64,000 nt of DNA, taken from contig JAGUCH010000001.1 of NCBI GenBank assembly GCA_019096065.1, forward strand, positions 16,368,001 to 16,432,000, written 5' to 3'. How positions within the stretch are numbered: the stretch's first letter is position 1; the number at the start of each line of letters is the position of its first letter. Origin of the DNA: Paracyclopina nana. Lineage: Eukaryota > Arthropoda > Copepoda > Cyclopoida > Cyclopettidae. Shown here piece after piece: positions 15,877 through 37,035 of the stretch. Both the position numbers and the translations under genes were made by a program. The notes under the pieces are model-generated. The model was given only the letters and a program-made list of their open reading frames with translations, had not been told where the DNA came from and ran no database searches.

Positions 15877-15882
15877 GCTGAA
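15877..15882. repeat. Left target-site duplication GCTGAA
   Basis: GCTGAA immediately abuts the first base of the left terminal repeat and is repeated immediately after the right terminal repeat. Confidence 0.85.
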
Positions 15883-16104
15883 TGTTGTTGGGGTTTGGCC
15901 CCCTTGAGCCTGTCGTTTGACTCGTGGTACTCGACGTGAATGGGCTTGTAGATGGGCTTGTAGATGGGCTTGTAAAACTGTTCCTACCTGAGGCCGTGAA
16001 AACGTTCCTACCTGGCGTCGTGAAACCAATCGTGAAACCAATCGTGAAACCAATCGTGAAACCAATCGTGAAACCAATCCTACCTGGCTTCGTGAAAACG
16101 TTCC
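15883..16104 (+). repeat. Left terminal inverted repeat of the Polinton, 222 bp
   Basis: Reverse complement of 36808-37029 with two mismatches. It contains three near-copies of ATGGGCTTGTAG and, at 16019-16078, five perfect tandem copies of the 12-mer CGTGAAACCAAT. Complementarity stops abruptly after 16104. Confidence 0.93.
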
Positions 16105-16422
16105 TACCTGATGTCGTCAAATCATTCCCAACTTTGCCATGAAAACGTTTCAGTCTCTCATTGTAAAACTGCTCATGATGGCAACATGTTGTTGAAGCTC
16201 TCCATAAATCATACTTGGAGAGTTGTATAATTGGCGAGTAGCAAAAATGTAAACAAAAATATAGGTCGTGACTAAAAGCGCTTGATATGCATTATTAGCA
16301 GCCATAATTCATGAAGAGTAGCAAAATGCTGAGACAGACATGCATCAATTTTTATGCATAATGCACAGTTGGCAGTCAATAATTGTTGGTCAGTGGAGGA
16401 GTGAAGAAGCTTCAGTAGCAAA

Positions 16423-19347: not shown

Positions 19348-20259
19348 ATGCCCAAAATAGTTCAGTGTTTTTCTTGTGGTAGCAAATTTAATGCATTTGC
19401 TAGCTACAGAGATCACAAGTCAACGTGTCAAGCCCAGCAGCAGCAGCAACAGCAACAAGAAAATGCTGCTGCTGCAAGTGGTAGATCACAGGCAGTGCAA
19501 ATCTGCAATCTATGTAGTGCTACCTTTGAGCAAAAATCACAATTGCACATTCATATTAGCAATGTTCATAAAAATCAAGCAGGAAAGTGGCTTTGCCACA
19601 AATGTCCTGCTATTTTTTCTCGTTTATTTGGTCTGAGAACTCATTTGAAAAAACAGCATGGAGGGATGAGACAGGCCTTTTATTGCCCATTATGCCCATC
19701 ACTTTACATTCCAGACTATGAAATATTGGAAGGTCACCTATCATCTGTGCATGGCACAGTCAAAGAGGAGGCAATATTTTCACTGTGTGACTCAGCCTTA
19801 AAAAACACCCAGGAATGTTTCAGTGCTAATCTAAAAGCTTTAAAAATTGAAACATTTGCTCAACTCACCATGTCAACAAAATTCATGCATGCTCTCAGCA
19901 AGATAATTCAAAATAATGTATAACATGTATGATAGCTTAGCATTGCTCCATATTGAACCAACTTTTTTTAGGTGTTACTGAAAACAAGGATCAAAATGGC
20001 TCTTATTGTTGTTGGTAAATTCATTAAACTTTCGGCTGACATGCTGGTTGAAGAAACACAATTTGTGCCATTACGCTCTCAATCCATTGAATTGAATCCA
20101 GAACGTGTGAAATATGTCAAACGCATCATTACTGACTTGGTTGGCCAATGTGAACTCCGATCACGTGAGCTCTGTTTAAGTGGAAGCAATTGGACTGAAG
20201 ATGGGCTCATTTCCATGCAAGTTGAATTTTCCAAATGTAGAGAGTTAGCTTGTTTATAA
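19348..20259 (+). CDS. C2H2 zinc-finger protein, Polinton accessory gene
   Basis: Exons 19348-19917 and 19972-20259 are separated by a 54-bp GT-AG intron and give 285 residues. The first exon carries a C2HC-like finger at the N-terminus (CFSCGSKF...HKSTC), a polyQ run, then three C2H2 fingers: CNLC...HISNVH, CHKC...HLKKQH and CPLC...HLSSVH. The second exon adds a 95-residue helical and beta segment of no recognisable family. Multi-finger proteins of this kind bind DNA sequence-specifically, so a transcriptional regulator of the element or host is the likely role. It is divergent from the PC4-like gene, with about 250 bp between start codons, and is followed by the 182-bp satellite array. Confidence 0.8.
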
Positions 20260-23548: not shown

Positions 23549-26500
23549 GGTTTGACACCTGTGTCCCTCGCAGTCAACATCTTCATTTGCTGCCACTTGA
23601 GTCCAGTGTCAAATCATTCCACTATGCTGTAGCCATCAGCCTATTTCATGCGTGTCTCCAAAATGACGGTGACGGTGGTGGTGGCATTTTGGCCGAATTG
23701 GACGCTATTCTCGCCCAACATTTCATTTTGGAGCCTCATGGAGATGAAGCAGCAAGCAGCACCAGCAGCACTGACGAAGATTGGCTCCACAAGTTGAACA
23801 TTGAAACCAGTGCATTGACCAATGACGAGCTCAAATTTGTATTGGATAATGCCCCCAAGCTGGACTTTTGCGTCAACTTATTGGGCATTTGGCGAAAAAA
23901 AATATATCCCATTGCCTTGGGGATTGGTGAAGCATCATCAGTGAAAGCAAGGCGAACGCACGTTGTCAACATCTTTAAAATTACGCTTCACAGGGAAGAC
24001 ATGCCAGCATGCCAACAAGAGCACATGCTTGATGCTCACTGGCTTGACTTGATGCAAAACCAACTGTCCAATATCAATAAAACTGAGCTGGAAGCGCTCA
24101 CTTTCCAACGCTTGAAGGAATCACAGCATGAAAGAGACGACCGACTTGCAGTACGCCAACGATTTGGACGTGAACTGTCCTACAAGAGCAAAGATGATGC
24201 TACATTGATGCATATTTTGAACCAACGTGAACATGAAGTCCTTGGTGTGGAAGAGTACTATTTTGCCATCAAAAACATGAGTGGCTTTCTTAGGCAAAGT
24301 TACACCATTGAATCCGAGACAGTGGGGGCACGGTCCAAAGTGTATTGGCGAAAAGCTTCTTTTTGCATCAGGTACAACTACTCACAGATGTGCTGCCTGA
24401 TTGTTCACTCTCTGCTTCTTCTAGATGCTGTGGACCCTTCTACAGCCCTACCAAGTTGGTTGAGCATGCCAAGTTTTGCCTTGCTCGACCAGTCCCCATG
24501 CGTGAATCCATGCCCAATGACTTAACGCCACCTCAATGGCACCAATCATTCAAAAAGCACCAGGCCAAAGAACGGGCAGAAGTTGTGGTCTATGCTGATT
24601 TTGAAAGCCTTCTGTCCAAGCCTGAAGCTGCATGTCAAATGTGCCAATCATCAGCTGAAAATGCCAGGACACGATGCAAGTGCCATGCGTCCATAGAGAG
24701 TGGAAGGGCTGCCTCCATGCAAGTGCTGAATGTTCACATCCCTATGGCTTTTGGCTATGTGGCAGTGGATAGCCGAGGTGTGCTTGTGCGTGAGCATTTG
24801 CAAATGTTGCCTGATGATGAAACCTGCAAAAAAGAGGGAAAGAAAATGTTTATCCAACATTTTCTCGACATGGAACCTTTCTTTCGTGCTTTGCTTGATA
24901 AGGATGTGGCTGCTCGACCCACTGAGGCTGATTTGGATCGGTTTTTTGCCACAAAGCACTGTGTCATTTGTGAGCAACCCTTTGATTTCAATTGCGACTA
25001 TTATGGTGCAATGTACACAAGAGGACTTGGGCAACGAGGGCTCCTAGGCCAACGCATTGTGTGCAGGCAACGACCAGAGGAAGGGGGAGAACAAATTGTC
25101 CACCATCACCACCACATCAAAGGCATCTGGCTTGGACCAGCCCACTTTGTAAGTCCACATTGCCAAAGCCTCACTACTCTCATCATCATCACCATTGTTT
25201 TCAATGCAGGTTTGCAATGTCGAGATTGCCAAACACAAAAAAGTGCACATTTTTATGCATAATTTTTCCGGCTATGACTCTGGCCTACTGCTTGATGCCT
25301 TGGATGATCCTCGCATAAAACACATGTCAGCTATCGCTGGCAACACAAATCGACTCAAATCTCTATCATTCAACATTTTCCAAATTTGTAAGACAAATGA
25401 TGAACACTGTTCTTCACTGATCTGATGTGTTTCTTTCAGCGGACTCGTTGAATCATTTACCAGCCTCATTAGCAGCCCTGGTGGATAACTTGAAGCAAAG
25501 TCACCATCATTTTCCAATTTTACGCCAAAGCAGTTTGGTCAAAAATGACCAGGGTGACGTGGATGAAGAAAGGCTTCATGCATCACAACAGAAATCCTTT
25601 TATCCCTATGAAGCAGCTTCATCGATTGCATGGCTCAAATCCCAAAAAGTGCTGCCACCAGCAGCTGCTTTTGCTTCAATGCTCACAGCATCAGCAGGAC
25701 TTTCAGGTTCTGAGCATGCATTTGCTCGAAAGGTATTTGGTCTGTTTGGTTGTCAAGATATGTACGACTACTGTGCCATTTATCTCTGGCTTGATTGTCT
25801 TCTTTTGGCCGAAGTATTTGAAGCCTACCTTGAAAAAATGCATGGATTGTTTGGACTCTATCCAAATTATTATTTGAGTAAGTCAAACTCCCTGTTTGTG
25901 CATGTTGATCAACACAACCTTTTTAGGCATTCCAGCCTATACCTTTGATGCCTTCCTCTACGCTGAAAAAATCCAATTGCCTTTTATTCAAGACCGCACC
26001 ATCTACAGAGCTTTTGAGGAGACGGTAAGGCAGTACAGACTACATTGAGCAGCATGTTGGAGATGTCATTTTTTAGGTGCGTGGTGGCCTCTGCTTTGTC
26101 AATAAACGGTTAGCTATTGCTGAAAGCCCTTCAGACCATGACCCTCACTGGACCACCGGTCTCTTTGATGCAAATTCACTTTATTCTGTGGGTGGGTAGC
26201 AAGCAAGACAAGCACACAAGTTATGCGCAGCTATCACTTCAATTCTAGGGATGGTCCAAAAACTACCTTTCAGCAACTTTCAATGGCTGACAGACAAAGA
26301 GATCCAATCCTTTGACAGCACTGGCCAAAGTTGGAATCTTGATGGTGAACTAGGCTACTTGATGAATGTTGATCTCGCCTATCCAGCCCACTTACACCGT
26401 GCCCACAATGATTTTCCACTGGGTAGAAAGGACAATTTTTAATGCTAATGCTTCTTCTTGAGCACATCTATTTTCAGCTCCGACGCAAATGATTGTGCCC

Positions 26501-27771
26501 TATGAAATGTTGTCTGAGCACACCAAAAAACTCATGGCTAAACTTGGTCGTACACCCTCAAGCATTTCCAATCGCAAGCTTGTAGCTACTTTATTGCCAA
26601 AAAAAGGCTACAGTGTGCACTGGAAAACACTTCACTTGTATCTTCAGCTTGGACTTGTCATTACAAAAATCCATTCCATTCTCCAATTTAAACAAAAAGC
26701 CTTCATGCGGAAATATGTCAACATGTGTATTGAGGCCCGAGGCAAGAGTAAAAGTTCGTTTGACAAAAAGCTTTTCAAGAGTGCTCAAGTGTCGCTTTTT
26801 GGCAAAACCATTGAAAATATCAGAAAGCGCATCTCATTAAAAATTGTGAGAAAGCCTTCCTTGTTGGAGAAGCATGTTGGTGCCAAAACTTACATGCTTA
26901 CGCGAGCCATTTCAGACAACATTGCGCTTGTGTTTCACAGACAGGACCACATTGTTTTGAATAAATTCCCGCACATAGGTAGGTAGCGTATGACTGTTCA
27001 GCCAACCACAAATTCACCTTTCATCTTCCAGGAGCCACCATTTTGGACTTGGCAAAAGCATTCATGTACAAAGCCCACTATGAGTTGTTCATGCCTGTGT
27101 TAGGTCCCTCTGCCAGTCTTTGCTTTGGTGATACAGATAGTCTGGCTTATCATTACTTGAGTCGTGGAGGCAATCAAGCCGTTCTCACAGCATTAAAGTC
27201 ACACTTTGACTTTAGTAATCTTCCACCTCATCATGCCTTGTTCAGCCTCCAACACGAGAATGCCATTTTCAAATTCAAAGATGAATCTGGAATGAAGTTT
27301 CAATTGGCTTCCATTGTGGCCTTAGCACCAAAAGTGTATTCCATCAAATCCGTACCGATTGGAGAGAATGAGGATGGTGTGCGCATCGAACACAAGTGCA
27401 AAGGCGTGTCAAAAGTACATGTCAAAAAAGAGTTGACACATGAGCATTATTTGGAAGCCCTTTTACAGGAAAAGCAAATTTATGCCTCATTTGCACAAAT
27501 ACGCAGAACAGGCCTTACCAAGCTGGAAACTGTACAGACTAGAAAATCGGCCTTGACTAGCTTGTGCCTGAAACGCTACTATTACAAGTGTGCCATTCAC
27601 TCAGCGGCCTTTGGAAGTGTGCTCATTGACCAGCTTGAGGGCAAGTGCTTTCAGTGCCTCGAAGAAAAAGAATTTGAGCTGTGGCGCAGGCGTCAGACAG
27701 GGAAACGCAAGTTCAGCAATGATGACGACGGCTGTTTACCTCCCAGTCCAAAGCTGCAAAGGCTAGCATAA
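23545..27771 (+). CDS. Protein-primed type family B DNA polymerase, Polinton
   Basis: Nine exons join in frame: 23545-24371, 24425-25148, 25210-25387, 25440-25877, 25927-26024, 26077-26191, 26249-26422, 26478-26978 and 27032-27771, giving 1,264 residues. After an N-terminal region and a Cys/His knuckle (CIRCCGPF...H...C), the 3'-5' exonuclease motifs appear in order: Exo I YADFES, Exo II HNFSGYDS and Exo III YLWLD. The polymerase motifs follow: A as DANSLYS, B as SLFGKTIEN, C as FGDTDSL. Between Exo I and II is the Cys/His insert (CVICEQPF...HHHIKG...AHFVCN) characteristic of Polinton and adenovirus-like polymerases. It should replicate the element from a terminal protein primer. Motif A has Ser where Pro is usual, and motif B lacks the usual Asn pair. 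It ends 9 bp inside the convergent protease gene. Confidence 0.93.
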
Positions 27772-28341
27772 CATATATTTACATTTTTGTTCGAGTATGT
27801 ACTTGCAAATAAATCTGACCACTCGATCATCATTTTTCAACAAAGATGCTTCATTGCCTTGTGTTAATTTCAACCGTTCATAGAAACGCCGTGGTTCCAT
27901 GCTTGAGCAAGGGTCTTGGCTTAAAATGAAGGCTAGTGCGAAAAAGCCACAAAAGTCTGAGAAGTTGCTTTGGATTTTTGCATGCAGCTTGACCACTTGC
28001 AAATGGCTCCCTCCAGGGTGCTCCAAAAGGATGCATTGGCATGTTTGAATAAACTTTGTTATATTGGGATCGGAAAAGCCGAGTGATAATGAGTCAAATA
28101 TATACAGGGTGGTTTGCAATGTGCCACGACCATGGTGAAGTAGCAAGGCAACAAAGTGTGTGCCAGCAAAGCGACTTGGACTGAGATTCACAATGCAACT
28201 CTTGCCTTCAAGGCGGTCCAATCCAAGCATGCGGTGAGCCATGCCATCTAGTTCGTCGCAAGCAAACACCCCTAAAAATGTACAGCAAAGGCGTGATCCC
28301 AGTGCATCCAGGTAAACATTGCTCAACCCCTCTTCTTTCAT
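27763..28341 (-). CDS. Adenain-like cysteine protease (maturation protease), Polinton
   Basis: 192 residues, single exon from the ATG at 28341. The catalytic set of clan CE adenovirus-type proteases is in place: His62 in GTHFVALLL, Asp83 in YIFDSLSLG, Gln124 in AKIQSN and Cys131 in DFCGFFALAF. Length matches adenain (about 200 residues). In this family the enzyme trims capsid and core precursors during virion maturation. It lies tail-to-tail with the polymerase, the two stop regions overlapping by 9 bp, and is 6 bp downstream of the capsid gene stop on the same strand, so the two may be transcribed together. Confidence 0.9.
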   Translation of the reverse strand: MKEEGLSNVYLDALGSRLCCTFLGVFACDELDGMAHRMLGLDRLEGKSCIVNLSPSRFAGTHFVALLLHHGRGTLQTTLYIFDSLSLGFSDPNITKFIQTCQCILLEHPGGSHLQVVKLHAKIQSNFSDFCGFFALAFILSQDPCSSMEPRRFYERLKLTQGNEASLLKNDDRVVRFICKYILEQKCKYMLC

Positions 28342-28347
28342 CCTGTC

Positions 28348-29894
28348 CTAAAAGTCCAGCATCACTTGTCGGTCACTGTTAATTGAGAGCATGCGATGGG
28401 TGGAGGTGTAAAAAACAATTTGGAGCGGTTCACTCGGAGGCTCTTTAAAAGTGATTTCCACGCCAATGTTGCCTAAAATGAACAAACATTCAGTCAGCAT
28501 GGCCATTAGGCCACTCTGCACTTTTCTTGATGTTGTGTTTACCTTTAGCATCCAGTCCCAAATGTGAATGGTACCCAGAACAACTACAAAACGTCCGATC
28601 GAGGCTAAAAATTGTGTACATGTGCTTATATTCTTCTTTAGTGATACCAATGGTAGGACTATGTGTGATACTCAGGTCCGTCAACAAACTGATGTACTCC
28701 CGGTTGAAGTCGTCTTTATCAAATTTTGGCTCATACCTTGTTGCGGGATAAGGTGTACCTTAGAGAGAGGGGAGATAGGCAGACAGTCACAAGATGATGA
28801 TGATATGCAGCTTACCATTCACTTTGAATTGCAAGCTGGCAATATTCCAATTTTTAAACACAAAGGAATTCACGCTCATCTTGCCAGATACAGCAGAATT
28901 AGGAACAAGTGCCAGCAAGCAAAGGTGGGGTAAAATACCATTGTGTAGGCTTGGAATAAAAACTTGAGTCAAATTGGCTGGAATAGCATGAAATGTCACA
29001 TTGCCGTTTATGTAGGGGTACAGCGCTGGAGTTCTCAGCAAGGCTGCAGTTTGTGCATCCAGCAATTGATTTACAACTTTGTGAGACCGCATGGCTAATT
29101 TTAAGTTAACCAGCTCAATTTTTAACTTGTCCTTCAATGCATCTTTTCCAATTAAGCAAAATGTGTCGGGAGAACGTGTCAGCTCAATCCTTATGTTGAC
29201 TTCAGAAAGTAACATTCTTGACATGTTGAGGACATCCACAAATAGTGGCATGCTAAAATTAATTTCACCATCATTTTTAAGAAAGAGCTCTCTTCGGCTG
29301 TTGAAGCCAGAAGGTTCAGTTGTTTTCTCTGTCGTTTCACAGTTGCTTGGCAGGTCTGGTTGCCAAAGCATCGATTGCATTCCACATGCTTTAGCCGAAG
29401 GGCCGTAACTGAATAGACTTTCAAAAAAGGCTTTATAGGGGTATCCGCCCACAGGCATGTTTGTTAATTCTGTACCATTAAAGCTGACTGCCACTCGGCT
29501 AAATAATGCCTGAGGCAGCAAATTGACAAAGCTAAAATCTGTTGTTGCTTGGGGTGCACCTAAATGAGTCATCAATGCGCATGTGGTTACATGAAAAATG
29601 TCTTATGTTTGTTTTACCTTCCGTGCCATCATCATTGATTTCTATAATTTTTAACTTTCCATAGAGTCTAGTTTGTTGCAAGTCAAAGAAATCATAGCTC
29701 AGACCAGACACATTAAACACAACATTGCCATGGTTTGACAAAGCATTAAAAGGCTGGTAAAATAGGTCTTCACCTCCAAGTAAAACAGAATCACGTTGAG
29801 GCTGAGCAAATAGATTGTATCTTGATTGACCTTGCTCATAGATAGAAGTAACAATTTCACCCAATCCTGGATGGTCGGTATTATAGCCGGACAT
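28348..29894 (-). CDS. Major capsid protein (hexon-like double jelly-roll candidate), Polinton
   Basis: Four exons, 29894-29618, 29559-28816, 28758-28543 and 28472-28348, all GT-AG and in frame, give 453 residues. The N-terminus (MSGYNTDHPGL) leads into beta-rich sequence with VVFNVSGLSYDFFDL, TTDFSFVNLLPQALFSRV and NGTELTNMPVGGYPYKAF, segments typical of Polinton capsid proteins. Late segments include LKIELVNLKLAMRSHKV and the spliced C-terminus ending DRQVMLDF. Family proteins form trimeric capsomers of an icosahedral virion. The ATG at 29894 is the first in this frame; an upstream frame without ATG extends to 29951. It is divergent from the TBP-like gene and co-oriented with the protease. 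The call rests on position, size and sequence style rather than a single diagnostic motif. Confidence 0.82.
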
Positions 29895-29929: not shown

Positions 29930-30589
29930 ATGTGCTTAAGTCATCATTCAACCATGTTTGTTCGCGCAGTCAACACGTGCTTTTGTGGACAGTTTTTAGA
30001 CATTTGCAATATCAAAGGCTCTGTGAAAATAAGTGGAAAAGTGGACCTTGATAGCCTTCAAACATTGTGCAACGAGCAGCTTCACATAAAAAATCGAAGA
30101 TTTCATAACTTTGTTGTGCTTTATTTCTACCCAACCAGCCTAAGACTCATTGTGTTTCAATGTCGTAGAGGTCAAACTATGTTTCATGTCAATTGTACAG
30201 GCATGAAATCAGTGTCTGACATCATGTCATGCTTGGAAAAAATTAAAATAATTTTTTCATGCAGTCAGAGTGACATGACTTTCCGAAAGGACAATATTAC
30301 ATGTAAAAGCTCCATTTTGCTCCATTACATGGCACAACATTTACCTCCAGATTACAAGATTAATTTGCTACAGCTCAAAGACGCTGTGCTGGACCTGTAC
30401 AAGGACACCATTGAACAGGCTCGTTTTCAACCTGAGGTCTACTCAGCCCTGATTGTGCGAGGCTTTGGCGCCTCAACACTGATCTATGAAAATGGCTCCA
30501 TGCTCATTTGTGGGGCAAAACATTACCACCAGTTGCATCAGGCCTCTCTTGCCATTTACACAGCATTATGTCGGATTGCCAACACTTGA
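29930..30589 (+). CDS. TATA-binding-protein-like factor encoded by the Polinton
   Basis: 219 residues, single exon. It shows the two-fold saddle layout of TBP. Repeat 1 (about 24-110) has ICNIKGSVKISGKVDL, then RRFHNFVV...P and LIVFQ, then the CTGMKS turn at 89-94. Repeat 2 (about 125-217) ends with QPEVYSALIV, STLIYENGSMLICGAK (182-197). The four DNA-kinking aromatic positions of TBP are occupied by F58, F76, Y171 and Y186. The CTG and CGAK turns match the CTGAK and LTGAK turns of eukaryotic TBP. It is strongly diverged, so it is not a captured recent host copy. In the family, TBP bends the TATA element and recruits TFIIB. A TFIIB-like gene overlaps its 3' end by 22 bp. It is divergent from the capsid gene. 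An alternative start is the ATG at 29954. Confidence 0.78.
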   Translation: MCLSHHSTMFVRAVNTCFCGQFLDICNIKGSVKISGKVDLDSLQTLCNEQLHIKNRRFHNFVVLYFYPTSLRLIVFQCRRGQTMFHVNCTGMKSVSDIMSCLEKIKIIFSCSQSDMTFRKDNITCKSSILLHYMAQHLPPDYKINLLQLKDAVLDLYKDTIEQARFQPEVYSALIVRGFGASTLIYENGSMLICGAKHYHQLHQASLAIYTALCRIANT

Positions 30590-31311
30590 ATCAAGCAGAT
30601 GATCATCAATCTGGGGATGTTATCTGCCTCTCGTGTGGACTTGTGATGGCAGAACGTGTTGCATTTGCTGCACCTCAGACAAGCTCAGACAATAGCCACC
30701 CACCTTCAAGCAAAAGTGGTCACGTCTCACCAGCCAAGCATGACCCAGCATGCAGCGGGGGCAAAGGCCATGATGCTCTTTTGGACACATTGCTGAATGT
30801 GTGTTCAAATGTAAATTTACCCCTACCATTTGCAAGTAAGGCTCATCATTTGTATCAAACATTAGGACAAAAAATCAAGTTGCCAAAGCTCTTGGTGCAT
30901 AAAAAAGCAATCCTATTTGCTGCCTTGTACGAGGTGCTGCAGGATGAGCAATGTCCCCTCACATTTCGAGAGATCACAAGCTTGGACAATGACCTCAAGG
31001 CATCACTCATTTCCACCGCTCACATCAAGTACTTTAAACAACACACGCACACAAAGCCTGTGCAGCTTGTGGACCGTTTTTGCGCTAAACTCAACATGAC
31101 AAAGGTTCAAGCATGTCAAGTAAGGAGGTTCATCCAATCCTCTAGCCTCAACCAATATTGCAATCTCAACCCTGCCACCATTGTTGCTGGTTTTATAAAG
31201 ATGTTCAGTGATGGTGAAAACCTTCAACTCAATGTGAATGATATTTGCACTATTGCTGGCATCAAAAAGCATACCTTGGTTCGCTTCTTGAAACGCTATC
31301 ACATGAACTAA
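30568..31311 (+). CDS. TFIIB-like general transcription factor encoded by the Polinton
   Basis: 247 residues from the ATG at 30568, which lies inside the end of the TBP-like gene in another frame. The N-terminus is a shortened TFIIB zinc ribbon: C4, H6, then SGDVICLSCGLVMAERV with C20 and C23. A 60-residue linker follows. Two cyclin folds are recognisable: about 88-160 (KIKLPKLLVHKKAILFAALY, CPLTFREI) and about 165-245 (LVDRFCAKLNM, NPATIVAGF, DICTIAGIKKHTLVRFLKRY), each aligning by eye with the matching TFIIB repeat. TFIIB bridges TBP on DNA to RNA polymerase II and helps set the start site. The overlap with the TBP-like gene suggests the two are made together. The loop between the first and second metal pairs is shorter than in host TFIIB, a sign of long divergence. 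Confidence 0.87.
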   Translation: MSDCQHLNQADDHQSGDVICLSCGLVMAERVAFAAPQTSSDNSHPPSSKSGHVSPAKHDPACSGGKGHDALLDTLLNVCSNVNLPLPFASKAHHLYQTLGQKIKLPKLLVHKKAILFAALYEVLQDEQCPLTFREITSLDNDLKASLISTAHIKYFKQHTHTKPVQLVDRFCAKLNMTKVQACQVRRFIQSSSLNQYCNLNPATIVAGFIKMFSDGENLQLNVNDICTIAGIKKHTLVRFLKRYHMN

Positions 31312-31340: not shown

Positions 31341-31826
31341 ATGCCAATTGGTGGAAGCATTGGGAGTGAAGTCACACCTGGACTAGGTGGACTGCTGAAA
31401 TTTCATCAAGGATCACATCTGCAGAGCGGATCGGGGCTTGGCTCCCTTTTTTCTTCTCTCTTTGCAAAAATATTACCGTTTGCTGCTAAAGCAGGCAAAG
31501 CAGCTCTTTCGGGCGTAAAGCAACTAAGCCAATCCGAATTGGGAAAAAATCTGAAGGCAACAGCTTTGAGTGCAACAACAGATGCCATCGCAGATTTAGT
31601 GCAAGGACAAGATCCAAGTGAAGGCTTGAAGTCGAAACTTGACGATGCAAAGCAGGAAATTGCTTCAAGCCTGAGAAATATTTCTGAAAAAAATATAGCT
31701 GCTGTGAACAAGCGAAAAGCCGCTACAGCTGCAGCTACAGCGAGCAGAAAGAAGAAGAAAAAGAGGCAACAGCAGCCAGCGGAAGAGCTGATCAATCAGC
31801 CCTACGATTTATTTGATGGCAACTAA
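31341..31826 (+). CDS. Virion-core-like protein (adenoviral pVI/pX-like style), Polinton
   Basis: 161 residues from the ATG at 31341. It begins Gly-rich (MPIGGSIGSEVTPGLGGLL), then has an amphipathic segment (LGSLFSSLFAKILPFAAKAG) of the kind found in Polinton and adenovirus minor core proteins. A helical, Lys/Ala-rich region and a strongly basic stretch (ASRKKKKKRQQQ) close it. Such proteins are thought to condense DNA or disrupt membranes during virion entry; that role is inference here. The stop codon overlaps the integrase start by 11 bp. Confidence 0.65.
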   Translation: MPIGGSIGSEVTPGLGGLLKFHQGSHLQSGSGLGSLFSSLFAKILPFAAKAGKAALSGVKQLSQSELGKNLKATALSATTDAIADLVQGQDPSEGLKSKLDDAKQEIASSLRNISEKNIAAVNKRKAATAAATASRKKKKKRQQQPAEELINQPYDLFDGN

Positions 31827-32970
31827 TTGGACAAGGGCAGAGGCAGCCAAAGCCTTGGCCAAACATTACACTCAGATTGGACATCCTATTGCTTTTGCAG
31901 GTCCACAAACCCTACACGACTATTTCAAGGGTGCTCTCACCTACACTGACATTAAGCAATTTTTGTCCACACAAGATGTGTACACAGCTTACAGGCTCAA
32001 CCATCCTAAGGCAGGCAAGCAAAATGTGATCTTTTCATACAAGAAACGTCAGCTGATTGAAGTGGATCTGCTTGATGTCTCTCGATACGCCAAGGAAAAC
32101 GATGGTGTTCGCTTCCTCTTGTGTGCAATTGATGCTTTCACGCGCTATGTGTGGATAGGGTTGCTGAAAACAAAGACTTGTGCTGAAGTGACATCTGTAT
32201 TTAGAAATATGCTTGATCGGGAGATAACACCGCCCAATGTGCGAGCACTTTGCTCTGATTTGGGGAAAGAATGGACAGGAAAGCCAATGCTGGCTTTGTT
32301 GAAGGAGCGATCCATTCAGCTGAGGCACTCATATGTATTAGGTCACTGTGCAAAAATTGAACGTGTGCAAGCATCCATCAAAAGGTTAATGTTGGCATTT
32401 ATGGACGAACACCGAACAGAGCGATATATTGACCACCTTGACCAAATACTGCAAACTTATCGCACAAGGAAACACCGTATCATACAAATGAGCCCAGCTC
32501 AGGCTGAACTGCCACAAAATCACATGCTCCTGAAGCAAATCTTTGAAAAAAACTATGCCTGTTTGAAGCGTGAAAAGCCAGCCTTTCAAATTGGACAAAT
32601 TGTTCGCGTAACAAAACTTGATACATTATTCAATCGTGCCTATGACTTGCAAACCAATAATGAACCCTATGTTATTTATCGTGTACGGACTGTGCACAAA
32701 ATTCCTACCTATGACTTGAAAGTTTTAAAAACTGGAGAAATTGTACAAGGTTCATTTTCAAAGCATCAATTGGTTGCTGTCGATCCCAGCATGAAATTTA
32801 GCATTGGTGATGTACTAAGGAAGAGAGGTGGAAAAAGTCTTATCACTTACCATAATCTACCCTCTACCTATCAAACGTGGCTGCCAAGCAATGTTGTCAA
32901 TCAAGTGCTGACTCAGGGCAATATCCCACAATTTCAACCACTTGCTGCGTATGTTAATAAACTAAAATAA
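31816..32970 (+). CDS. Retroviral-type (rve) DDE integrase, Polinton
   Basis: 384 residues from the ATG at 31816, single exon. The RNase-H-like core is clear: D84 in IEVDLLDVS, the strand RFLLCAIDAFTRYVW, D148 in ALCSDLGKEW and E182 in AKIERVQASIK, with 33 residues between the last two. A beta-rich C-terminal domain follows (FQIGQIVRV, YVIYRVRTVHKIPTYDL, FSKHQLVAV), the arrangement seen in Polinton and gypsy-type integrases. It should cut the ends of the element and join them to target DNA with a 6-bp stagger, consistent with the GCTGAA duplication seen. The start overlaps the virion-core gene by 11 bp, and the minor capsid gene starts 4 bp after its stop. Confidence 0.92.
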   Translation: MATNWTRAEAAKALAKHYTQIGHPIAFAGPQTLHDYFKGALTYTDIKQFLSTQDVYTAYRLNHPKAGKQNVIFSYKKRQLIEVDLLDVSRYAKENDGVRFLLCAIDAFTRYVWIGLLKTKTCAEVTSVFRNMLDREITPPNVRALCSDLGKEWTGKPMLALLKERSIQLRHSYVLGHCAKIERVQASIKRLMLAFMDEHRTERYIDHLDQILQTYRTRKHRIIQMSPAQAELPQNHMLLKQIFEKNYACLKREKPAFQIGQIVRVTKLDTLFNRAYDLQTNNEPYVIYRVRTVHKIPTYDLKVLKTGEIVQGSFSKHQLVAVDPSMKFSIGDVLRKRGGKSLITYHNLPSTYQTWLPSNVVNQVLTQGNIPQFQPLAAYVNKLK

Positions 32971-32974
32971 TACA

Positions 32975-34696
32975 ATGACTAGCTATTTTTTTTTGGCTTC
33001 AAATGGATCAACTGACATCTATCCTAACAACACACTTAGCCATTTTACAAATGCTCTCAGTGCACCCATGGCAAAATCCAACCGCATTTGCGAAGTGGCA
33101 GTGGAAGAATGCTTTGTTGATGCTCAGTTTCTGACACAAGGGATTATGGCTTCAAACCATGAACATCCCGTCATTGTGCTCACCAAAAACTGTGACAGCA
33201 CTAGCGAGGAATCCCTCATCATTGACATGGAGCAAAGTGTTGACATTGTCTCGAGGATTTTCCTACCGCACAAAAGCTACACATTGCGAAAGTTGGCAGA
33301 CATCATCAACTCAGATGTGAAGAGTGCTGCGACAACAGTACAGACTGATGAAAAGCCCTACATAGCCTATGCAGACCCTACCACGTTAGTGACTTATTTT
33401 GGTTGCTTTGCAAGCGAAAAATCAATGATGAAAAAGTTTAAGTGTGACAAAGAGCCTGACAAGCCCATCTGTATGCTTATTTACGAAGAACTAGCCAACA
33501 TGCTATCAGATGGGACATTTCAACCGCGAGAGCGCATGTTGCAACATGGTCTTGTCTACAGCGTGTATGATGCCAACCATGAGGGAGTTTATTTCAAATG
33601 CAAAAAAGGTGCACAGCTCAAACCTCAAATCCCTAAGCAAATTTTTTTATCTGCTTCATTTGTAAAAAAGCACCAAATTGACAGTCGGACGTGCAACTAT
33701 GTGGCTTCGTTCAATATTGAGCGACAAAGCAACAACGGATTTTACCTTGAGCTCAAAAATCCAATCTATTTCCAACTGTGTGAAAATCAGCCAAGAACTA
33801 ACCTAACATTGCGACTTCTTGATGAAAACTACGAACAACTCAAGTTGCAACCAGGAAGAGCTACAATTGTCAAATTTAGCCTACGACGATCGACACTTCA
33901 AACAATGTCTAATTTTTTTATTCGATGCACCTCCAAGCCAACTGACAATTATAGGAAAAATAACCCAGGCAGCTTCACCTCTAGCCTAGCTGTTCCCCTC
34001 AACTTTTATGGCCACCATTGGTATGTGGCTCTTGCATCATGCTCTCTTCCTGCCAAATTTGAACTGCCCTTCTCCAACCGTGAAAGGAGTCTCTACTTCA
34101 AATTTTGGTCTGCTGAAGATGCTTCAGAGATTACATCTTTTACCCTCATGATGCCAAAAAATGTCAACCAATTGCAGGACATTGTGCAGTTTTTCAACAG
34201 CCAATTCAAGGCAGTGCGCACAAAGGCGAGCATTGACCCGCAAAGTGGTGGACTCTGCTTGACATCAGAACTGAACATGCGCATTGTGTTGCCAACAAAG
34301 TTGTATACATTTTTAGGGGGCAAATCCTCAAGTGCTGCAAGAAAACCCGTCATGTCCATAGAAAGGCTAGCTAACAAGCCATTCAGCTTCAATTTTTTGC
34401 CCAAATTCAATCATTATATCCCAAATTCTATTTTCTTGTATGCCGATTTTATAACAGATACAATTGTATCCAACAATGAGCTGAAATTGCTCAAAGTATT
34501 GCCAGTGAAAACAATCACTGAGGAGGGCACCAATGTCAATATTGAGTTTGAAAAACTTGAATATCACAAAGTGAATGTGGCAGCAGCTTCCACCTTGCAT
34601 TTTGACCTTCGCACACACAGCGGAGAAAAAGTAGCATTTAATAATGACAATGACTTTGTTTTGCTCAATCTTGTATTTACGCAACACGTACAATAA
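32975..34696 (+). CDS. Minor capsid/penton-like candidate with internal duplication, Polinton
   Basis: 573 residues, single exon. Two regions resemble each other: residues 4-45 (FFLASNGSTDIYPNNTLSHF, TNALSAP) and about 312-360 (FFIRCTSKPTDNYRKNNPGSF, then SLAVPLNFYGHHWYVALASC). This recurring pattern, a short strand, a Pro-Asn-Asn turn, Phe, then Trp/Val-Ala-Leu, is common in large structural proteins of Polintons. The stop TAA sits inside AATAAA (34692-34697), which may serve as poly(A) signal. Its position directly after the integrase and its size suit a penton/minor capsid or vertex protein. The duplicated architecture means it could also be a fusion of two such domains. Assignment is by style and context. 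Confidence 0.6.
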   Translation: MTSYFFLASNGSTDIYPNNTLSHFTNALSAPMAKSNRICEVAVEECFVDAQFLTQGIMASNHEHPVIVLTKNCDSTSEESLIIDMEQSVDIVSRIFLPHKSYTLRKLADIINSDVKSAATTVQTDEKPYIAYADPTTLVTYFGCFASEKSMMKKFKCDKEPDKPICMLIYEELANMLSDGTFQPRERMLQHGLVYSVYDANHEGVYFKCKKGAQLKPQIPKQIFLSASFVKKHQIDSRTCNYVASFNIERQSNNGFYLELKNPIYFQLCENQPRTNLTLRLLDENYEQLKLQPGRATIVKFSLRRSTLQTMSNFFIRCTSKPTDNYRKNNPGSFTSSLAVPLNFYGHHWYVALASCSLPAKFELPFSNRERSLYFKFWSAEDASEITSFTLMMPKNVNQLQDIVQFFNSQFKAVRTKASIDPQSGGLCLTSELNMRIVLPTKLYTFLGGKSSSAARKPVMSIERLANKPFSFNFLPKFNHYIPNSIFLYADFITDTIVSNNELKLLKVLPVKTITEEGTNVNIEFEKLEYHKVNVAAASTLHFDLRTHSGEKVAFNNDNDFVLLNLVFTQHVQ

Positions 34697-35821: not shown

Positions 35822-36692
35822 TCAGCTATTTTTGACAAAGCAAATGGGTACCCCTATAGAAAGTACAAAATAAAGAATGAAACCACACTCACATCCATGC
35901 AAACTACCTTCATGAGAAAAGATTCTGCTGCGCAAACGAACCACATCACTTTGAGAGGCATGCATGTCAAGAATCAAATAGGAATAAGGTGTTCTTGTTG
36001 CTGCAAGATAACTATTGACAATAAAGGATGATTGGTAAGGAGCAATTTGAGAGCTCAATGTAGAAATCTGCCGTTGCGAACGCACAGATTTCATTAAAAT
36101 CAAGTAAGTTGCATTCAAGCTGATTGTTCGCAAATGGGGTCCTTCACCAAATAATACTTGAGATGCAACCAGTGTGCTAGCATTCAAATGACGTGAGCCT
36201 AAATAATATGTGTTGATTAACCAAAAAGAGAGCATCATTGAATACTTACCAACTGTGTAAAGTTGGTGGAGCTCGCTAAAGCTCTGCAATGAATCATCAA
36301 ATATTGCAAAGCATCCTTCTTTCTTGTAGCTTGCCAAAATTTCGCGAATTTCATCATAGGGTGGAATGCCTTCAATGAGTCGCGTGATCAGTCCATTTTT
36401 TAAAAGTGTTTGATAGATTGGCTGATATTCTTGATAGAATAGCAGCTTGACTGGTGGGTTTGGGTAAATTAGTTTGTCCGATTCCATCAAAAGATTTTGT
36501 ATAAATGTGGTTTTTCCAGAACCTAAATGAATAATGCATCATGAACAACATAAAAAAGAGTCTTCCTTCTTGCCATTACCAGCTGGACCACACACCAAAT
36601 ACGTTGCAGGATGCTAAATAAACATGATGATTATTTTGGATTTTTTATGCAATTCAATGTTTGTTTACCTTAAATTGAATGTCAAAAGGCAT
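35822..36692 (-). CDS. FtsK/HerA-type genome-packaging ATPase, Polinton
   Basis: Five exons, 36692-36669, 36613-36580, 36522-36250, 36198-35908 and 35853-35822, give 217 residues. Exon 1 encodes only MPFDIQFK. The P-loop GPAGSGKT (residues 17-24) is split between exons 2 and 3, and the Walker B strand is CFAIFDDS (90-97). Length and motif spacing fit the A32-like packaging ATPases of Polintons and related viruses, which drive DNA into preformed capsids. The last intron (35907-35854) is 54 bp with no stop, so retention would merely insert 18 residues. It is the last gene before the right terminal repeat and points inward. Confidence 0.85.
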
Positions 36693-36807
36693 TTTTCTAA
36701 ACCTACTACTTTTATGCCTCCACCTTCTTTTAGTTCATGTGATTGCTTACTACTTCAGCTCATTCTTATCACGCAACCTTTGATGAGCCATTTTACAGCA
36801 CGAGCTG

Positions 36808-37029
36808 GGAACGTTTTCACGACGCCAGGTAGGATTGGTTTCACGATTGGTTTCACGATTGGTTTCACGATTGGTTTCACGATTGGTTTCACGACGCCAG
36901 GTAGGAACGTTTTCACGACCTCAGGTAGGAACAGTTTTACAAGCCCATCTACAAGCCCATCTACAAGCCCATTCACGTCGAGTACCACGAGTCAAACGAC
37001 AGGCTCAAGGGGGCCAAACCCCAACAACA
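36808..37029 (-). repeat. Right terminal inverted repeat of the Polinton, 222 bp
   Basis: Reverse complement of 15883-16104 with two mismatches. The five 12-bp tandem copies (ATTGGTTTCACG on this strand) are at 36834-36893. It ends CCAACAACA at 37029. Confidence 0.93.
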
Positions 37030-37035
37030 GCTGAA
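37030..37035. repeat. Right target-site duplication GCTGAA
   Basis: Direct copy of 15877-15882, immediately after the right terminal repeat. Confidence 0.85.

Follow-up and report, generated by a model that had tools for sequence, protein, structure and literature searches.

Which RNA polymerase reads the genes of a mobile element that encodes relatives of two general transcription initiation factors, and from which promoters? The question is raised by a 64,000-nucleotide stretch of the genome of the copepod Paracyclopina nana (assembly GCA_019096065.1, contig JAGUCH010000001.1, positions 16,368,001 to 16,432,000 of the forward strand), hereafter the window, in whose numbering we give coordinates. 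The window contains a Polinton-type element of 21,147 bp with a 6-bp duplication (GCTGAA) at its ends, and two adjacent genes of this element encode a TBP-like and a TFIIB-like protein. A preliminary description had proposed that the pair either redirects host RNA polymerase II (Pol II) to element promoters or competes with the host factors. Judged from sequence comparisons, the pair probably represents working, element-specific general initiation factors that act with host Pol II.

A TBP-like and a TFIIB-like gene in the element

The TBP-like frame (29930..30589, plus strand; the stop codon ends at 30589) encodes 219 amino acids, or 211 from the ATG at 29954, which is the start conserved with a 74%-identical copy. 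The protein matched Pfam PF00352 in two stretches (8.6e-11, 42 bits, cut-off 22.9), and archaeal TBP models of NCBIfam covered residues 23-107 and 154-212, their scores of 25-30 bits being well under the cut-offs of those models. When a profile of seven element TBPs was compared with the PDB, 35 of the 36 distinct sequences matched were TBPs or TBP fusions. F58, F76, Y171 and Y186 align with the phenylalanines that kink the DNA in structures of cellular TBP, and the four positions are aromatic in all seven element TBPs aligned. Both the TBP-like gene and the four retained aromatics of the preliminary description were thus recovered.

The TFIIB-like frame (30568..31311, plus strand) encodes 247 amino acids, with a ribbon-like N-terminus, a linker (about residues 29-65) modelled below a predicted local distance difference test (pLDDT) score of 50, and two cyclin folds extending to the end; the structure model has the TFIIB core fold. 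Its matches to PF08271 (1.5e-4, 21.7 bits, cut-off 29) and PF00382 (2.1e-4, 21.7 bits, cut-off 23.6) are below the cut-offs. A single-sequence comparison with human TFIIB gave 1.8e-7, a relative from the lineage called B' below exceeded the PF00382 cut-off (39.8 bits), and the significant matches of the TFIIB profile to solved structures were TFIIBs, with no BRF among the matches listed. On these grounds the assignment to TFIIB stands. The ribbon of the window protein reads C4-x-H6...C20-x2-C23, its first spacing being one residue shorter than the C-x2-H of host TFIIB, and the pattern Cx[HC]...Cx2C was found in all five TFIIBs inspected, one representative each of lineages A, B, B', C and D (see below). 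The lineage C TFIIB (L074, 1535-2710) carries a zinc-ribbon-like motif twice, in tandem, at its N-terminus.

As described before, the two frames overlap by 22 bp (30568..30589, plus strand): the TFIIB start ATG lies at 30568, inside the TBP frame, and the last base of the TBP stop codon is 30589. The same arrangement, with TFIIB starting within the TBP gene and in the -1 frame, is seen in lineages A, B, B' and C; in lineage D a short gap separates the two genes and the TFIIB start is in frame +1. Slippery heptamers occur only in B and B' among the stretches scanned. A TBP-TFIIB fusion made by programmed frameshifting is not supported, since the frame is -1 in four groups but +1 in D and the heptamers are confined to B and B'. 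TFIIB would most likely be made from a transcript that starts inside the TBP gene or by re-initiation.

The pair recurs next to a putative capsid gene

A search of the genome (91,952,342 bases in 10 contigs) for integrases gave 29 matches, which we combined into 22 loci according to their positions. The two factors were sought with TBP, TFIIB and the corresponding Pfam families as queries; the locus counts are lower bounds. TBP and TFIIB were both present, in identical order, at at least 14 of the 22 integrase loci. TFIIB alone was found at two (C3:9026070 and C6:6422780) and neither gene at six. Among the 22 loci there are four pairs in inverted orientation, eight loci in all, with about 15-17 kb between partners; if each of these is one element, 13 of 18 elements carry the gene pair. 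The inverted loci (C7:4631859/4648280, C9:2262711/2279143, C3:1719024/1735964 and C9:812736/828147) could mean that some of the elements are palindromes or contain very long inverted repeats.

The 14 pair loci fall into four lineages: A (five copies, including the window), B (three near-identical copies, plus one of the more distant B'), C (three) and D (two). Identity of the factors is about 21-40% between lineages, and 55% (TBP) and 45% (TFIIB) between B and B'. At 10 of the 14 loci neither frame is interrupted; one or both are broken at C1:1070502, C2:14452165, C2:2002847 and C9:830102. Host genes separate from those of the elements encode a canonical TBP, a TFIIB, and proteins that we take to be a TRF2-like TBP and BRF. 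The paired cassette noticed in the window is not confined to that copy.

Upstream of TBP and divergent from it lies a gene (28787..29894, minus strand; part) that we take, from the usual gene content of Polintons, to encode a capsid protein; its relative had no match in Pfam or the PDB. It is related to a 433-aa gene, and the search for the putative capsid gene gave 15 matches, one at each of the 14 pair loci and a fragment at C3:8996259, and at all 14 pair loci the gene adjoins TBP and is divergently transcribed. The post-integrase gene and the polymerase occur also at loci without the pair. The four of the six pair-less loci that were examined (L069-L072) have inhibitor-of-apoptosis-like genes upstream of the integrase, and one such protein, scanned with Pfam, has BIR and RING domains. 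These loci (C9:2279143, C9:2262711, C7:4631859 and C3:1719024, respectively) have a lineage B integrase and two inhibitor-of-apoptosis-like genes. L072 retains a TFIIB tail just before the integrase. It seems that the putative capsid gene, TBP and TFIIB are retained or lost together. Since they lie side by side, their joint fate does not count as independent evidence for a common function.

Selection on the pair and its age

Substitution rates were estimated by the Nei-Gojobori method. Among the lineage C copies the ratio of non-synonymous to synonymous rates (dN/dS) was 0.18 for TBP and 0.17-0.18 for TFIIB, at dS 0.20-0.23. Between the TBP genes of the window and C1:1070502 the proportions of differing synonymous (pS) and non-synonymous (pN) sites were 0.73 and 0.15. 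The pair is under purifying selection where this is measurable. Open frames arising by chance are ruled out by the significant matches in several lineages together with the low dN/dS. Comparison of the window with the C3 copy showed 9 differences in 4,152 positions and, in an overlapping stretch, 6 mismatches and one 3-base gap in 3,657; being near-identical, the two copies indicate that the lineage moved or was duplicated recently.

Relatives were sought outside the genome as well. The window TBP and TFIIB had no match in the protein database (38 and 337 candidates, respectively, by a method that needs shared 5-residue words). An alignment of the TFIIBs retrieved three proteins, P0001, P0002 and P0003, the latter two of which look like ordinary TFIIBs. 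P0001, whose highest identity to a sequence of this genome is 33%, is an element-type TFIIB of 229 aa from ENA (two contigs, the longest of 11,323 bases), which suggests that the element-type TFIIB family occurs in another organism. Viral contigs scanned with the TBP, TFIIB and integrase alignments and with P0001 gave no confirmed relative; scanned with alignments led by ordinary TFIIB and TBP, they gave two loci and one, respectively. The scan of genome contigs returned 113 TBP relatives, of which 80 were kept. No relative was found in phage records, and PHROGs gave only a weak match for TFIIB, to a family without a name. Two of the outside loci (L079 and L084) are one-frame TBP genes, about 50% identical to animal TBP, in marine bacterial assemblies; they are perhaps misbinned viral or eukaryotic contigs.

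Of the 83 outside loci, 14 were used for trees, 13 of them for TBP and one (L076) for TFIIB. The fragment L077 and 68 other TBP loci were omitted. In the TBP tree (22 rows: seven element TBPs, host TBP, TRF2, ten archaeal TBPs chosen for spread, L078, L079 and L084) the seven element TBPs lie on one side of a branch with support 100/100, apart from host TBP, TRF2 and the ten archaeal TBPs. In the TFIIB tree (14 rows, including seven element TFIIBs, P0001 and L076) the element TFIIBs and P0001 lie on one side of a branch, again with support 100/100. The best tree mixes P0001 among the element TFIIBs, and a clade of the seven without P0001 was not rejected (p-AU 0.151). As the branches are long in both trees, and the tree program warned of long-branch joins in that of TBP, the deep placement of the element groups is not fixed by them. 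Recent capture of host genes is ruled out, the element TBPs and TFIIBs being on branches of their own. The long residence in the element lineage claimed in the preliminary description agrees with these groups and with the low dN/dS where it is measurable.

Introns and promoters

The preliminary description had noted the absence of an RNA polymerase subunit, and none was found when 18 window open reading frames (17 of the 45 listed and one more) were scanned with Pfam. The putative capsid gene contains a predicted 79-nt GT-AG intron (29539-29617) whose GT...AG borders are conserved between the window and the C1:1070502 copy and whose interior has diverged; in lineage B the gene is in one frame. 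Matches to the DNA polymerase are split into several pieces in lineage A, whereas in lineage B a single open frame of about 1,100 codons holds them. With a conserved intron and a polymerase gene in pieces, the element appears to need nuclear splicing, which would make it dependent on Pol II. In the window the putative capsid gene (minus strand, from 28815 downwards, compared with L011) shows a second short GT...AG interruption, seemingly absent in the C1:1070502 copy; it may be a recent intron gain or loss.

At the TBP start, CTTAAGTCATCATTC (29935..29949, plus strand), upstream of the conserved ATG, is conserved in a lineage A copy despite synonymous sites near saturation and may be an initiator-type element; lineage C has CTTAAG near its TBP start. 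The two motifs are too little for the claim of a footprint at this place.

Other features of the element

Polintons are characterized by terminal inverted repeats, a 6-bp target-site duplication, a protein-primed family-B DNA polymerase, an rve integrase, an adenovirus-type protease, a packaging ATPase and jelly-roll capsid proteins. As judged from the sequence, the element shows the main ones of these features, and its description as a 21-kb Polinton holds. The left target-site duplication GCTGAA (15877..15882, read directly) is identical to the right one (37030..37035). The left terminal inverted repeat (15883..16122, plus strand; 240 bp) is 96% complementary to the right one (36790..37029, minus strand; 240 bp). 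Two exon pieces of the family-B polymerase (25424..25876 and 26477..26824, both on the plus strand) were recognized by their likeness to the lineage B' relative (38% identity, E 1.5e-24, and 35%, E 1.8e-13, respectively), which, used as the query, itself matches PF03175 at 2e-22. A second family-B polymerase group (457 codons open; C4:2804198, C3:4110827, C9:1672144 and C3:9949828) is located away from Polinton integrase, TBP and TFIIB matches. The adenovirus-type cysteine protease (27763..28341, minus strand) matches PF00770 (2.6e-5, 24.4 bits, cut-off 21.3). The integrase (31816..32970, plus strand) scores below the PF00665 cut-off (1.4e-4, 22.5 bits, cut-off 32.6), and its lineage B homologue scores above it (2e-10).

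Between TFIIB and the integrase there is a small gene (31341..31826, plus strand; 161 aa) to which no function is assigned. A putative second virion protein (32975..34696, plus strand) is 24% identical to the product of the post-integrase gene of lineages B and B' and had no match in Pfam or PDB searches. The main exon of a gene that, from gene order and motif, we presume to encode a packaging ATPase (35822..36487, minus strand) had no Pfam match; a Walker-A-like motif is split by a predicted intron just upstream. An element gene at 19348-19923 encodes C2H2 zinc fingers (PF13894, 3.5e-8) and may specify a further DNA-binding regulator. No Rfam family was found in the window.

Discussion

How might such a pair work? 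Host Pol II and host factors would first transcribe the element TBP and TFIIB genes. Element TBP would then bind and bend element promoter DNA, element TFIIB would dock on the TBP-DNA complex, and its zinc ribbon would recruit host Pol II. In this way a subset of element genes, most likely those of the capsid phase, would be read from promoters poorly served by host TFIID. DNA binding, TBP-TFIIB pairing, Pol II recruitment, promoter choice and timing are all inferred. The order of events, with host factors acting first and element factors serving later genes, is modelled on ORF24 of Kaposi's sarcoma-associated herpesvirus (KSHV) (PMC12529657, PMC7498053).

Several observations weigh against working initiation factors. 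A single-sequence model of the TBP reached a pLDDT of only 42, with no TBP among the 50 best fold matches and no match of any kind at E <= 0.001, and the TBPs of lineage C score 15.1 and 14.8 bits, short of the Pfam cut-off. Among the TFIIBs, that of lineage C gave only E 0.081, that of lineage D only 0.041 for PF00382 (1.1e-4 for the ribbon), and that of lineage B was marginally below the cut-off with no ribbon match. Synonymous sites are saturated between lineages, so dN/dS is uninformative there. No shared core-promoter motif was recognized upstream of 14 window gene starts inspected by eye. The four inhibitor-of-apoptosis loci keep the integrase without the pair, which is therefore dispensable for some derivatives. 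Finally, neither a B-reader nor a B-linker can be recognized in the stretch of the window TFIIB that joins ribbon and cyclin folds (nothing aligned there), and in lineage B this stretch is very short. Start-site selection would therefore have to differ from that of the host factor.

Cellular TFIIB needs the B-reader and B-linker for its function at the start site, and a region that is short or unrecognizable speaks for a decoy, a pair that sits on host promoters or ties up TFIID partners or Pol II, and dampens host transcription without productive initiation. However, the kinking aromatics and ribbon cysteines are kept across lineages, and inhibition would not require that the two proteins be maintained as a constant pair next to a putative capsid gene; we consider a decoy unlikely. 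These same residues, together with the predicted spliceosomal intron of the neighbouring gene, are our reason for favouring redirection of host Pol II, the first of the two proposals made in the preliminary description, over competition with the host factors, the second.

A productive pair might instead recruit RNA polymerase III or I, or one member might work with a host partner, for example element TBP with host TFIIB. The structure-profile search that returned TFIIBs speaks against this, as does the intron-bearing element gene, which points to Pol II, and we regard such a use as improbable. That the two folds were kept for replication, packaging or a place in the virion would accord with their tight linkage to the putative capsid gene; joint retention of two initiation factors that bind each other in cells is best explained by their partnership, and the ribbon cysteines and aromatics are kept; we give this very little weight. 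Were the element virophage-like, and its pair a means of using the RNA polymerase of a large DNA virus in the same cell, it would have parallels in poxvirus TBP/TFIIB-type pairs that work with their own polymerase (PMC12917281) and in the placement of virophages and Polinton-like viruses in one phylum (PMC12638062), but predicted spliceosomal introns do not suit cytoplasmic transcription, and we regard this reading, too, as very unlikely.

On balance, we favour transcription in the nucleus by host Pol II acting with element factors. Whether Polintons of this group possess a complete second promoter-recognition system for host Pol II, with their own TBP and TFIIB tied to a capsid module, is a broader proposition that we advance tentatively, at somewhat less than even odds. 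If it is true, we know of no smaller virus-type genome in which both factors are replaced together while no RNA polymerase is encoded, and the pair would be old enough that it could bear on the origin of giant-virus factors. It would let Polintons time their capsid genes apart from host control. With both factors in 21 kb and host Pol II to work with, such an element would offer a minimal natural setting in which to ask how far TBP and TFIIB may diverge without losing the recruitment of Pol II, and what determines the choice of promoter. The finding also opens a survey of other animal Polintons for the TBP-TFIIB pair.

How does the element compare with known systems? Mirusviruses and giant viruses have homologues of the same factors in far larger genomes (e.g. 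431.5 kb in a mirusvirus). TBP is present in 59% of mirusvirus genomes and 0% of Nucleocytoviricota; the available text on mirusviruses names TBP and not a TFIIB pair (PMC10132985). TFIIB is a giant-virus marker gene, and RNA polymerase subunits are also among these markers (PMC12638062). TATA-binding proteins are reported in elements with mirusvirus-type capsid genes that have no identifiable DNA polymerase or double jelly-roll capsid genes (PMC10675990). Polintons/Mavericks and adintoviruses share the family-B polymerase, integrase and virion-maturation protease with our element, and the adintovirus gene list, in the part available, names neither TBP nor TFIIB (PMC8363768). The main text of a paper on double jelly-roll capsid viruses including Polintons contains no word beginning with "transcription" (PMC11071308). 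Among the matches listed in a search of the open-access literature, as far as their text was available, no description of a TBP or TFIIB gene in a Polinton was found.

The nearest functional parallels are two. In poxviruses, VITF-3 and VETF/Rap94 likewise form virus-encoded TBP-like and TFIIB-like pairs that select viral promoters (PMC12917281), and these work with the viruses' own polymerase, whereas in our element no polymerase subunit was seen, the genes have predicted introns and the factors are recognizable by sequence. KSHV ORF24, a TBP mimic of beta- and gamma-herpesviruses, replaces TBP for late genes and, in the nucleus, guides host Pol II to the late promoters of the virus; it needs its conserved TBP-like phenylalanines, a likeness to the element TBP. 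No TFIIB gene partner is named for it in the available text. ORF24 binds Pol II by its own N-terminal domain, and the predicted structure of the herpesvirus TBP mimic is reported to be incompatible with direct TFIIB binding (PMC12529657, PMC7498053). Viral TBP and TFIIB are already known; what seems to be new here is the pair without a viral RNA polymerase, in a Polinton.
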